The notes under the pieces were generated by a model. It was given only the letters and a program-made list of their open reading frames with translations, was not told the DNA's origin and did not search any database. The position numbers were made by a program, and so were the translations under genes. A stretch of 64,000 nucleotides of DNA from Actinokineospora diospyrosa (GTDB lineage Bacteria; Actinomycetota; Actinomycetes; Mycobacteriales; Pseudonocardiaceae), in assembly GCF_024171925.1 (NCBI RefSeq), contig NZ_JAMTCO010000014.1, positions 22,058-86,057 on the forward strand, written 5' to 3'. Below are positions 4,066 to 54,950 of the stretch, in pieces. Each line of letters starts with the position of its first letter. Position 1 is the stretch's first letter.

Positions 4066-4453
4066 CGATCGCCGCGGCCAGCAGGTGCGCGACCACCAGC
4101 ACGACCTTGGTCGAGGTGGCCGTGTCCGCGGCGGCCAGCGGACCTGCCAGCGACAGCGCGGTCAGCACGACCGTGGTCCGCAGGTAGGTCCGTGCCGCGT
4201 CCTTGGCGTAGCGGGCCACCAGCAGCGCCAGCACGGTCCCTCAGAAGACGCTGATCACGGTGCCCATGGCGAACATCCCCACGGTGATCGGCTCGGCGGT
4301 GTCCGCGCCGAGGCCCCCGGCGGCCATCGGGACGCCCGCGGCGCGGGCGAGCAGTCCGTACACTTCGGTCGCCGCGGCGGCCGCGAGTCCGGCGGCGGCG
4401 CTGACCAGCCAGATCGGGCGGGTGGTCATGGGCGGGCGCGCGGTGGTGGTCAT
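4028..4453 (-). pseudogene. DUF6069-like membrane protein gene interrupted by an in-frame TGA
   Basis: Reading leftward from ATG 4453 (ribosome-binding site GAGGAG), the frame encodes MTTTARPP...GMFAMGTVISVF. It meets TGA at 4241-4243 and then continues in the same frame with GTVLALLVARYAKDAARTYLRT to a stop at 4028-4030. The joined product would be about 141 residues with four membrane helices. It matches the layout of DUF6069 proteins: R..T.LRT, LSL.GPL, AHL..A.VIP. The frame is intact on both sides, so one base change (most simply TGG to TGA) explains the break. Options are a recent pseudogene, readthrough, restart at GTG 4234, or a sequencing error. Confidence 0.7.
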
Positions 4454-35058: not shown

Positions 35059-36456
35059 ATGCGGTCGACCAAGGTCACGCTGCTGGCGCTCGCGTCCGCG
35101 TTGGTGGTCGCGGGGTGCGGGTCAGGCGGTGGGGGAGCCGACCCGGCCGTCGGTGCGCCCCAAGGCGCGATCGCCTACCTCGACTCCGACTGCCCGGACG
35201 CGGGGATCCGGCCCGACGGGGACAAGGAGTTCACCTACTGGTCGATGTGGAACGCCGACGAGCCGCAGGGCAAGGTGCTGAGCAAGGCGATCCGCTGCTT
35301 CACCGACAAGACCGGGGTGAAGGTCAACGTGCTGTGGTTGGGCCGCGACCTGCTCACCCGCAACGTGGCGCCCGCGCTCAACACCGGCACCGTGCCCGAC
35401 CTGTTCGACCAGGACGTCAGCCAGGTCATGGCGTCGGTGGTCAGCGCAGGTGGAACGCAGCCGGTGGAGGACGTGCTGGACTACAAGGTCGGTGAGGGCG
35501 AGCTGAAGGTCCGCGACGTGCTGCCCGCGGCCTCCTACGACTTCCCGCAGAACAAGGGGCCCGACGGCAAGATCTTCGAGATCCCGTACGTGGTGTTCGG
35601 GTCCGCTTGGTGGTACGACCGCACCGTCGCCGGGCGGGTGACCGCGCCGAAGACGACCGAAGAGCTGTTCCAGTTGTTCGACAACGCCAAGTCCTCCGGC
35701 GTGGCCGCGCTCGCCCAGGACGGCGACCGCCCGGTGTCCAACGCGTCGCTGTTCACCCAGGCCGCGGTGCGCTTCCTCGGCGCGGGCGGCCTGACCAAGG
35801 CGGCCCAGGACAAGACGGGCGAGGTGTGGCGCAACGACGTCGGCCTCTACCAGGCGGCCGAGTTCGTCGAGAAGATCGCCAAGGGCCGGTACCTGATCCC
35901 CGGCTGGGACTCGGCCAAGTACCCGACCCTGCAGCAGCGCTGGGCCGACGGCGAGGCCGCGTACCTGTCCATGCCGGGGTGGCTGCCCAGCGAGTCCAAG
36001 CAGTACCTGGACAAGAAGGGCGGCGACCGCTCGATCAGCCTCGGCTCGTTCCCCTTCCCGCAGCCGGGCGCCGCCTCGCACATCGTCGCCGAGCGCATCC
36101 CGGTCGGCTTCGCGATCACCGCGAAGGCGAAGAACCCGGGCGCGGCCAAGGCCTTCATCGCTTACGTGCTCAACAAGGACATCCTCTCCGGCGTCCCCGC
36201 GGTCGCCGACAACCTCACCCCCCGCGCCGACCTCGCCGTCCCGGAGTCGCAAAAGGACATCCGAGCCGCCCTGTCCGACCCCGGCACCGAACAAGCCCTC
36301 TACCTCGACGGCGTCAACGCCCTGGCCGGTGGCGCGTGGGCCGAGACCGTCCTCTACCCACTCACCGACACCCTCCTACGCGGCAACATCTCCGCCGCCG
36401 ACTTCATCGACGCCATGGCCGACCGCCAAGCCAAGTTCTGGAAGACCGCCAAGTAG
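35059..36456 (+). CDS. orphan ABC-type extracellular solute-binding lipoprotein (family 1)
   Basis: The 465-residue lipoprotein begins MRSTKVTLLALASALVVAGCGS, with the lipid-modified cysteine at residue 20. The mature part has family 1 (maltose-type) features: EFTYWSMWNADEPQGKVL, FTDKTGVKVNVLWLGRDLL and the late motif ERIPVGFAITAKAKNPGAAKAFIAYVLN. It probably binds a carbohydrate. No permease or ATPase gene is adjacent, which is unusual for this family, so it must use components encoded elsewhere. A C-rich, G-poor stretch follows before the inverted-repeat element. Confidence 0.88.
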   Translation: MRSTKVTLLALASALVVAGCGSGGGGADPAVGAPQGAIAYLDSDCPDAGIRPDGDKEFTYWSMWNADEPQGKVLSKAIRCFTDKTGVKVNVLWLGRDLLTRNVAPALNTGTVPDLFDQDVSQVMASVVSAGGTQPVEDVLDYKVGEGELKVRDVLPAASYDFPQNKGPDGKIFEIPYVVFGSAWWYDRTVAGRVTAPKTTEELFQLFDNAKSSGVAALAQDGDRPVSNASLFTQAAVRFLGAGGLTKAAQDKTGEVWRNDVGLYQAAEFVEKIAKGRYLIPGWDSAKYPTLQQRWADGEAAYLSMPGWLPSESKQYLDKKGGDRSISLGSFPFPQPGAASHIVAERIPVGFAITAKAKNPGAAKAFIAYVLNKDILSGVPAVADNLTPRADLAVPESQKDIRAALSDPGTEQALYLDGVNALAGGAWAETVLYPLTDTLLRGNISAADFIDAMADRQAKFWKTAK

Positions 36457-36516
36457 CACCCCACCAACCACTCCCCGCCCCAACCTCCCCCACCTCACCA
36501 ACCTGCCCCCTGCCAC

Positions 36517-36662
36517 TGCTCGATGGGGCGGACTTGTTTTGCGTGGGGGGACGGCACCCGTAGCGTTTCCTCGCGGCAGGGCCAGTCTTTTCGGCCCCTG
36601 CTTTGCGGTTCTGCCACGGGTGTTGTAGGGGCCCCACGCAAAACAAGTTCGCCCCATCGAGC
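36517..36662 (+). repeat. long inverted-repeat (hairpin) element, copy 1
   Basis: The left arm begins TGCTCGATGGGGCGGACTTG and the right arm is its near-perfect complement. The outer stem is about 32 bp with one G-T, followed by a partly matched inner stem and an apical AGTCTTTTC loop. The reverse complement of 54318-54464 aligns over the full length without gaps, with 15 differences in 146 positions. Confidence 0.88.
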
Positions 36663-36965
36663 CAACCGCACTCCCAGCCCCGGCACGGACACACGGCTAC
36701 CTCGCCCCACCGAGCCACACGCACTACCAGCCCCGGGGCGGACACATGGATACCTCGCAGCGAGCCGCACGCTCTCCCAGCCCAGGCGCGGGCACACTGA
36801 TACCCACCCGTTCGAGCCGACCGCACTGCGAGTCCCGGCGTGGACACACCGATACCCGCCCATCGAGCCACGCGCACGGCCAGCCCAGCGCGGACACACT
36901 GGTCTTCGCCTCACCGAGCCACCCGCACTCCCACCACCCCGCAGCCACACCACCGTTCGCGTGGA
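36658..36965. repeat. degenerate ~51-bp tandem repeats (minisatellite A)
   Basis: CGAGCC recurs at 36658, 36711, 36761, 36813, 36864 and 36915 (spacing 53, 50, 52, 51, 51). Units share CGCAC near the start and GGACACAC in the middle. The unequal spacing breaks any reading frame. Confidence 0.8.
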
Positions 36966-37067
36966 GGCCCACCGCCCGTAGCGTCGTTCGTGGACCGGCC
37001 ACGCTTCCGCCTCTGCTTTGTGGACATGCGCGGGTGCCCCACGCACAACAAGTCGGCCCCACCGAGC
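36959..37067 (+). repeat. decayed third copy of the hairpin element
   Basis: Sequence from GCGTGGAGG (36959) through CCCGTAGCG, CTCTGCTTTG and CCCCACGCACAACAAG to ACCGAGCC (37067) follows copy 1 in the same orientation. There are many substitutions, a deletion near the right arm, and the outer left arm is missing. Confidence 0.6.
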
Positions 37068-37179
37068 CCATCGCATGCCGGACCCCGTGGACACTCCCGA
37101 CACGGCCAACGTCCTCAGTCGAGGCACCGGCTTGATCGATACCCTTCTCGATCACCGGGCACTGTGACACCTGGCTGCG

Positions 37180-43364: not shown

Positions 43365-43521
43365 ATAACCGAACCGAAACCACCCCGCGCGTGCCGGACC
43401 GGCACACCACGCGGGCGAACCAACAGGGCAGCACGCCGCGCGCCACGGGACCAGTTCGCCGGTCCTCGGTAGTGGTTCCCGCCGAGCCGAGAGGGCTCCG
43501 GGGACTTCGATCGAAGACCGG

Positions 43522-43579
43522 CCTCGTCATGAACCGCGACCCCGTGCCCGGGCAGTGCGCCGCCCTGACGACGAGGAGT
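43522..43579 (+). promoter_or_regulatory. pnp leader hairpin that covers the ribosome-binding site
   Basis: CCTCGTC (43522-43528) is complementary to GACGAGG (43570-43576), which overlaps the GAGGAG ribosome-binding site (43574-43579) of pnp. An inner GGGC/GCCC hairpin is possible. Position and context match the Actino-pnp leader RNA described in actinobacteria; I could not check the consensus. Confidence 0.5.
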
Positions 43580-54195: not shown

Positions 54196-54317
54196 GTTGG
54201 GGGTGCGGGGCAAGGGATTGGGTCGGCCTCGTCGCCTGGCGGCGAGCTCGGCGACCCGGGATCGGACGCCTCGTTGCCTGGCGGCAACATCGGGCCCGAT
54301 CCGCGATTTTCGAGCTT

Positions 54318-54464
54318 TGCTCGATGCGGTGGACCTGTTTTGCGCGGGGCCCCTACGACACCCGTGGCAGAACCGCACAGCAGGGGCCGAAAAGCATGGC
54401 CCTGCCGCGAGGCGACGCTACGGCTGCCGTCCCCCCACACAAAACAGGTCCACCCCATCGAGCA
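54318..54464 (-). repeat. long inverted-repeat (hairpin) element, copy 2 (inverted)
   Basis: Reverse complement of copy 1 with 131 of 146 positions identical and no gaps. The outer stem reads GATGCGGTGGACCTGTTTTG against CAAAACAGGTCCACCCCATC. Changes from copy 1 keep pairing at most stem positions. Confidence 0.88.
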
Positions 54465-54485: not shown

Positions 54486-54950
54486 TGTCCAGGCGCTGGG
54501 ATGGCAGGACAGCCGAGAACGGGATGAGATGGCACCGCCAAGTCCGACTGTCCACGGGCTGGGTAGGTGGGCTGAGGCGGACCTGACGGAAGGCCAGTTG
54601 GCACCGCCAAGTCCGAGTGTCCAGGTGCTGGGTAGGTGGGTTGGGGCGGACCTGACGGCAGCTGGGTCGGCACCGCCGGGTCCGAGTGTCCAGGGCTGGC
54701 ACTGTGGGGTGGGCGGACCTGACGGAAGGCCAGTTGGCGCCGCAGGGTCCGAGTGTCCAGGGGGCTGGGTTGGCAGGGCTGGCTCGGTGGGCTGGTTTGG
54801 CGCCGGCTGGTCTGAGTGTCCAGGGGCTGGGTTGGTGGGCTGGGTCCGGACCTGACGGAGGCTGGGCTGACATCGGCAGCTTCGGTGTGTCCAGTGGTTG
54901 GGGTGGTGCGGGCAGGTGGGATCGCGAACTCGGGGGGCTAAGAGTCCGCA
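54486..54950. repeat. degenerate 63-71-bp tandem repeats (minisatellite B)
   Basis: TGTCCA recurs at 54486, 54549, 54618, 54687, 54754, 54817 and 54888 (spacing 63, 69, 69, 67, 63, 71). Units share GCACCGCC before it and CTGGGT and GGACCTGACGG after it. Confidence 0.78.

Follow-up and report, generated by a model that had tools for sequence, protein, structure and literature searches.

The 64,000-nucleotide stretch of the Actinokineospora diospyrosa genome analysed here (the window) contains two long hairpins in inverted orientation, which raises the question of what kind of element they represent. The initial annotation described them as a selected RNA structure and a possible miniature mobile element. 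On realignment copy 1 and the reverse complement of copy 2 are, as claimed, identical at 131 of 146 positions without gaps. The reported compensatory changes at stem position 13 (C-G in copy 1, T-A in copy 2) and position 18 (T-A in copy 1, C-G in copy 2) were recovered, as were the three cases in which a Watson–Crick pair in one copy is a G-U pair in the other, namely position 15 (G-U in copy 1) and positions 26 and 28 (U-G in copy 2); all three are wobbles in the copy-1 plus direction. At position 10, absent from the earlier list, copy 1 has a G-C pair and copy 2 a G-G mismatch.

Each hairpin consists of an outer stem of about 31 pairs, an asymmetric internal loop with the motif UAGGGGCCCC, a middle stem and an inner hairpin (Table 1). 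The RNA folding z-scores are −11.1 for copy 1 (plus strand) and −10.5 for copy 2 (element strand), with none of 200 shuffles folding as well, and a 20-base arm pattern has five matches in the window against 0.02 expected. The element strand is the better folder in both copies, with −106.6 versus −98.5 kcal/mol for the complement in copy 1 and −110.5 versus −85.8 kcal/mol in copy 2, and again so under DNA folding parameters. A third, degenerate copy on the plus strand had been overlooked.

Table 1. Features of the hairpin elements and their surroundings in the window.
Feature	Position	Strand	Basis or remark
Hairpin copy 1 (type 1)	36517..36662	+	Fold; covariance model match G000:C14:58574-58720
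Hairpin copy 2 (type 2)	54318..54464	-	Fold; site and orientation common to G006 and G005
Degenerate third copy, model positions 22-146	36956..37067	+	nhmmer, 29 bits; 41.7 bits in another search
Copy 1 outer stem, 5' arm	36518..36548	+	Fold
Copy 1 outer stem, 3' arm	36632..36662	+	Fold
GGGGGGACG, conserved internal loop, 5' side, copy 1	36545..36553	+	Sequence, motif search, alignment
TAGGGGCCCC, conserved internal loop, 3' side, and closing stem, copy 1	36626..36635	+	Sequence, alignment
674-base block in G000, missing at the aligned G006 site	36456..37129	+	Begins with the upstream gene's stop codon
Tandem array, 5.5 copies of a 50-base unit	36649..36933	+	Repeat unit opens with the 3' end of the hairpin itself
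Tandem array, 4.9 copies of a 69-base unit	54530..54859	-	5' side of copy 2

The hairpins belong to a large family. In the host genome (8.1 Mb in 29 contigs) a 26-base arm pattern with up to three mismatches gave 197 forward and 203 reverse matches, while the reversed pattern gave none; with two arms per copy, these 400 matches correspond to roughly 200 copies. Chance or a simple duplication of two copies is ruled out by this copy number and the controls. Some arm matches lie less than 60 bases from a contig end (C1, C2 and C4). No autonomous element with the same arms was seen among the 100 listed of the 400 matches. The named records in which the arm pattern occurs belong to Actinokineospora globicatena and A. 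terrae (46 of 47 among the stretches listed); a match in Oricola has one arm only and was taken as chance.

A plain DNA search matched 8 of 61 genomes, all of Actinokineospora, being confined to the genus because the stems diverge, and the exact core-motif pattern was found in 8 of 297 Pseudonocardiaceae genomes, with zero matches of the reversed control in every genome listed. The covariance search proposed in the initial annotation revealed further copies in 37 of the 297 Pseudonocardiaceae genomes, representing 10 of 46 genera and including 15 of 16 Actinokineospora, so that the related genomes do hold more copies, as that annotation had anticipated for a genuine structure; ten candidates were scored per genome, which makes copy numbers lower bounds. 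G013 has no match to the model. Matches were obtained in 22 genomes of other genera, from among which 15 loci were inspected. An order-wide survey of 298 genomes, with ten candidates scored per genome and strict filters, matched eight, all of them Pseudonocardiaceae.

Carriage by phages or plasmids was not indicated by blastn of copy 1 against 50,697 phage and 72,556 plasmid records or by the core-motif pattern in viral contigs, searches that strongly diverged copies would escape, the motif pattern being exact. No Rfam 15 family exceeds its gathering score at the hairpins, the best sub-threshold one, MIR1515, scoring 24.4 bits where 140 are needed. The only Rfam match in the window lies elsewhere, an Actino-pnp RNA (43458–43522, 65.4 bits), a known cis-regulatory family. 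No description of the hairpin family was found in the open-access literature searched, where four element strings occur in seven papers with unrelated-looking titles, and the family is apparently undescribed.

Of 129 full-length matches, the 118 copies scoring more than 60 bits, which come from five species (109 distinct before alignment), were aligned. In 115 of the 118 the plus strand forms the more stable fold, with means of −108.1 kcal/mol versus −95.2 kcal/mol for the complement. By parsimony on a tree of the distinct copies, which is rough because gene conversion blurs descent, Watson–Crick pairs of the outer and middle stems changed to G-U 58 times and to A-C 14 times, whereas the equivalent base changes in unpaired columns number 28 and 41 (Fisher p about 1e-6 against the stem ratio). 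The same stems underwent 16 double changes from one Watson–Crick pair to another on single branches. The inner helix has no G-U preference (10 changes to G-U, 9 to A-C). Since a mutational bias of the strand would appear in the unpaired columns, selection for one-strand folding is the better account. In a comparison across genera, the rows of which were fitted to the covariance model and so lean towards it, G-U outnumbers A-C by 32 to 2 in 18 Actinokineospora rows and only weakly, by 15 to 10, outside the genus.

The compensatory pairing of the two window copies extends to a set of 29 sequences, picked for diversity from nine Actinokineospora genomes and one genome of another genus, in which 36 of 54 pairs have changed on both sides. 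Paired cells amount to 90.5%, compared with 79.8% in shuffles, a control inflated by the kinship of the sequences, and 38–46% with the partners slid, a control that is favourable because the structure was derived from the same sequences. Covariation above the shuffled and slid controls, a feature of structured RNAs, is thus present. Folding of one strand of the hairpin is selected, whether as RNA or as single-stranded DNA. The asymmetry between G-U and A-C fits both molecules alike, because wobbles behave alike in both and DNA folding agrees. Of the earlier description as a selected RNA structure, the selected fold is upheld by the 36 of 54 covarying pairs and the 58:14 ratio; the specification as RNA is not, since single-stranded DNA would leave an equal mark.

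In G007 the letters of the outer stem are almost wholly different and pairing is retained. AGGGGCCCC is invariant in 29 of 29 aligned sequences, and the internal-loop motif UAGGGGCCCC persists while stem letters turn over between species. The loop motif lies on the model's strand at 14 of 15 Actinokineospora loci and 11 of 15 loci from other genera. At the latter YAGRGG is found in 11 and UAAGC in 9, with none of the 15 on the opposite strand, a count that is partly circular because the model and inspection by eye supplied the strand. Neither motif occurs in strict form at L272, L273, L274 and L280, which may be unrelated hairpins. Across the aligned copies the stem letters prove replaceable and the loop motif does not.

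The hairpin forms part of larger blocks in which it is combined with tandem arrays of 69-base or 50-base units and with additional modules. Among 73 host copies, 55% share the 5' flank in register at 250 bases and 55% the 3' flank at 200 bases; as flanks are common to about half of the copies, the multiplying unit is larger than the hairpin. The 50-base array beside copy 1 starts its unit with the 3' end of the hairpin, as if the end of the element had seeded the array. Short hairpins resembling stable DNA mini-hairpins were noted by eye on the 3' side of many copies, in the window at 54220–54330 as TTGCC(GCCA)GGCAA and TCGCC(GCCA)GGCGA, and in relatives as repeated GCC(GAA)GGC-type hairpins.

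Pairs of a DnaA-box-like 9-mer (TTGTCCACA), 19 bases apart, lie 3' of copy 2 (53957, 53976, 54076 and 54095). In the window and loci L041–L080 of the host (G000), 108 such boxes are located outside called genes (97 kb) and five inside (342 kb), and of 129 boxes close to copies in four species, 97 are 3' of the hairpin in one orientation. The 9-mer occurs within 1 kb of 43 of 58 copies in G000, compared with 3 of 18 in G006, 3 of 12 in G012 and 3 of 8 in G005. This scarcity in the relatives led to the rejection of the boxes as part of the element; being frequent in G000, they are rather a co-amplified module of the host genome, which may titrate DnaA.

The window aligns colinearly with the nearest relative, G006 (about 90% identity), and with G005, G012 and G009. 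Copy 2 is conserved in site and orientation in G006 and G005, and copy 1 is missing wherever the upstream gene was matched in other Actinokineospora (14 loci); in G006 the block of 674 bases from the stop codon is gone, with one base left. Of 12 host copies scorable against G006, six are shared and six absent, three further copies being unscorable (right flank unaligned in two, one not covered). In four of the absences a block of 674–1157 bases is replaced by 0–20 bases, and in the other two 548 and 218 bases stand in its place. At the L045 site A. globicatena has a copy and G006 has none, for which reason an absence in G006 can be a loss.

At nine sites, ten position-orthologues are 66–90% identical, while the host copy has a relative within its own genome that is 95–100% identical, and the true positional partner ranks only 18th to 70th among the host's copies. 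Orientation is conserved in the nine unambiguous site comparisons. These alignments show that copies appear and disappear from one species to the next and resemble each other within one genome, a pattern that fits inheritance in place combined with homogenisation within each genome; oriented reinsertion at the same site may be another account of the likeness.

None of the 118 copies overlaps a gene called by a simple gene caller. Of the 117 copies flanked by genes on either side, 73 are in convergent and seven in divergent gaps, compared with 11 convergent cases among 147 gaps of 100 bases or more that lack the element, a background drawn from the window and the corresponding regions of four relatives and therefore one region in five genomes rather than a genome sample. 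The copies lie between 16 and more than 1000 bases from gene ends. The single copy in G150 follows an adenosylhomocysteinase-like gene, and no transposase or reverse transcriptase was recognised by eye in 12 kb of open reading frames around it. Closely spaced pairs of copies, a few hundred bases apart at most and oriented either alike or in opposition, were seen in several species (L107, L109, L111, L220, L098, L036, L265 and L260). Beside a copy in A. terrae (L116, about 4200–4300) about 35 consecutive C residues precede an N, which likely reflects an assembly error at the repeat.

A scan around both window copies revealed no promoter-like site, so that a transcript would need a promoter of a neighbour or of a type not scanned. 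No T run of an intrinsic terminator follows either full hairpin; the single terminator call in copy 1 concerns a stem of 6 pairs within the arm.

On balance, the element is probably a non-autonomous structured intergenic repeat, folded as a single strand and multiplying within larger intergenic blocks. The folded strand would be recognised through the loop motif by a putative trans-acting protein, and this working strand would more likely be RNA than single-stranded DNA. A protein that mobilises the element was not found. Copies would multiply inside the larger blocks, be homogenised by gene conversion and survive at the least harmful places, after gene ends and between convergent genes.

The same placement could reflect an RNA serving the host at gene 3' ends, where the hairpin would be processed by RNase III or would shield convergent transcripts. 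The excess in convergent gaps (73 of 117 versus 11 of 147) and the orientation kept at shared sites are consistent with this function, as is the arrangement in other genera, where seven loci follow a co-directional gene and three are opposed. However, within the genus copies with co-directional neighbours show no orientation bias (17 the same, 20 opposed), which speaks against a role tied to reading in one direction from the neighbour. Half of the scorable sites are not shared with the nearest relative, gene-end distances vary widely, and G013 manages without a match, making a host-serving RNA unlikely.

Elements of the IS200/IS605 type move as folded single strands of DNA that are exposed on the template of the lagging strand. 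By analogy, the hairpin could be mobilised in this way, as suggested by its strand-specific fold, which holds under DNA parameters too, and by the absence of target-site duplication. In G006 the plus strand runs along fork movement at 58 of 88 places (p 0.004, with dnaA at 1.386 Mb); however, G007 is unbiased, with 8 of 19 places. The Y1 transposase (PF01797) was not found in the host and is present in only two of 16 Actinokineospora, G007 and G015; both carry the hairpin, but the family is absent from 13 of the 15 element-bearing genomes. Movement as folded DNA is therefore a doubtful explanation, ranking below a host-serving RNA. Lower still stands a bacterial SINE-like element, with an RNA or strand-specific single-stranded DNA intermediate and a candidate trans protein reading the UAGGGG/GGA internal loop, which is conceivable at a rather low probability.

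A classical miniature transposon, with a DDE transposase recognising terminal inverted repeats, is suggested by the 31-base inverted arms (the 31-pair outer stem), the size of about 146 bases and the some 200 copies. However, none of 73 copies has a flanking repeat of at least 4 bases at the hairpin ends, 3-base repeats being found at seven (2.5 in shuffles), and of four nearly clean empty sites, two (with 0–1 base left in G006) lack a duplication at the ends of the block. Moreover, shared flanks extend far past the arms, stem letters are replaced wholesale between species while inner loops are kept, and double-stranded recognition predicts no excess of G-U over A-C; such an origin is very improbable. 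The many genomic copies do exist, and the proposal of a miniature mobile element finds no support in its classical transposon form, given the lack of target-site duplication, a unit exceeding the hairpin and the absence of Y1 from the host. Equally remote is a passive palindrome in which template switching between arms, raised earlier as arm-to-arm gene conversion, mimics covariation without a selected fold: it accounts for the 16 double changes, but arm copying would neither favour G-U over A-C (58:14) nor hold a one-strand loop motif across genera.

Small palindromic repeats are common in bacteria, and the mechanism of their spreading is mostly unknown. As non-autonomous structured intergenic repeats, the Actinokineospora copies have their closest kind in the Correia, ERIC and RUP repeats (PMC2229807), whose usual target duplication and terminal TA they lack. 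REP and BIME sequences are palindromic intergenic repeats that favour gene 3' ends and are tied to RAYT (Y1) transposases; the hairpin shares with them the palindromic form, the intergenic location, the preference for gene 3' ends and neighbouring pairs of copies, but it is much longer and its host lacks Y1. With Rfam structured RNAs it shares a covariation-supported fold and conserved internal-loop letters, although no family reaches threshold.

The Correia (NEMIS) elements of Neisseria are roughly 107–155 bases long, intergenic and with inverted termini, form a stable stem-loop when transcribed, and have target-site duplications and a terminal TA, with processing by RNase III proposed (PMC2229807). 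Size, inverted termini, intergenic placement and stem-loop are common to both families. Unlike Correia, the Actinokineospora element has no target-site duplication or terminal TA, and displays single-strand asymmetry and inner loops conserved across genera. The enterobacterial ERIC (IRU, RU-1) is likewise an intergenic stem-loop repeat of similar size encoding no protein, ERIC having a target-site duplication and TA (PMC2229807); its letters are unrelated, whereas the Actinokineospora element has a 31-pair outer stem and larger shared flanks.

The family is traceable over genera, with stems that change freely, a fixed loop motif and a statistical sign of the working strand. The question of what recognises such repeats thereby becomes testable in cultivable, non-pathogenic soil actinomycetes, and annotation pipelines gain a new repeat family.
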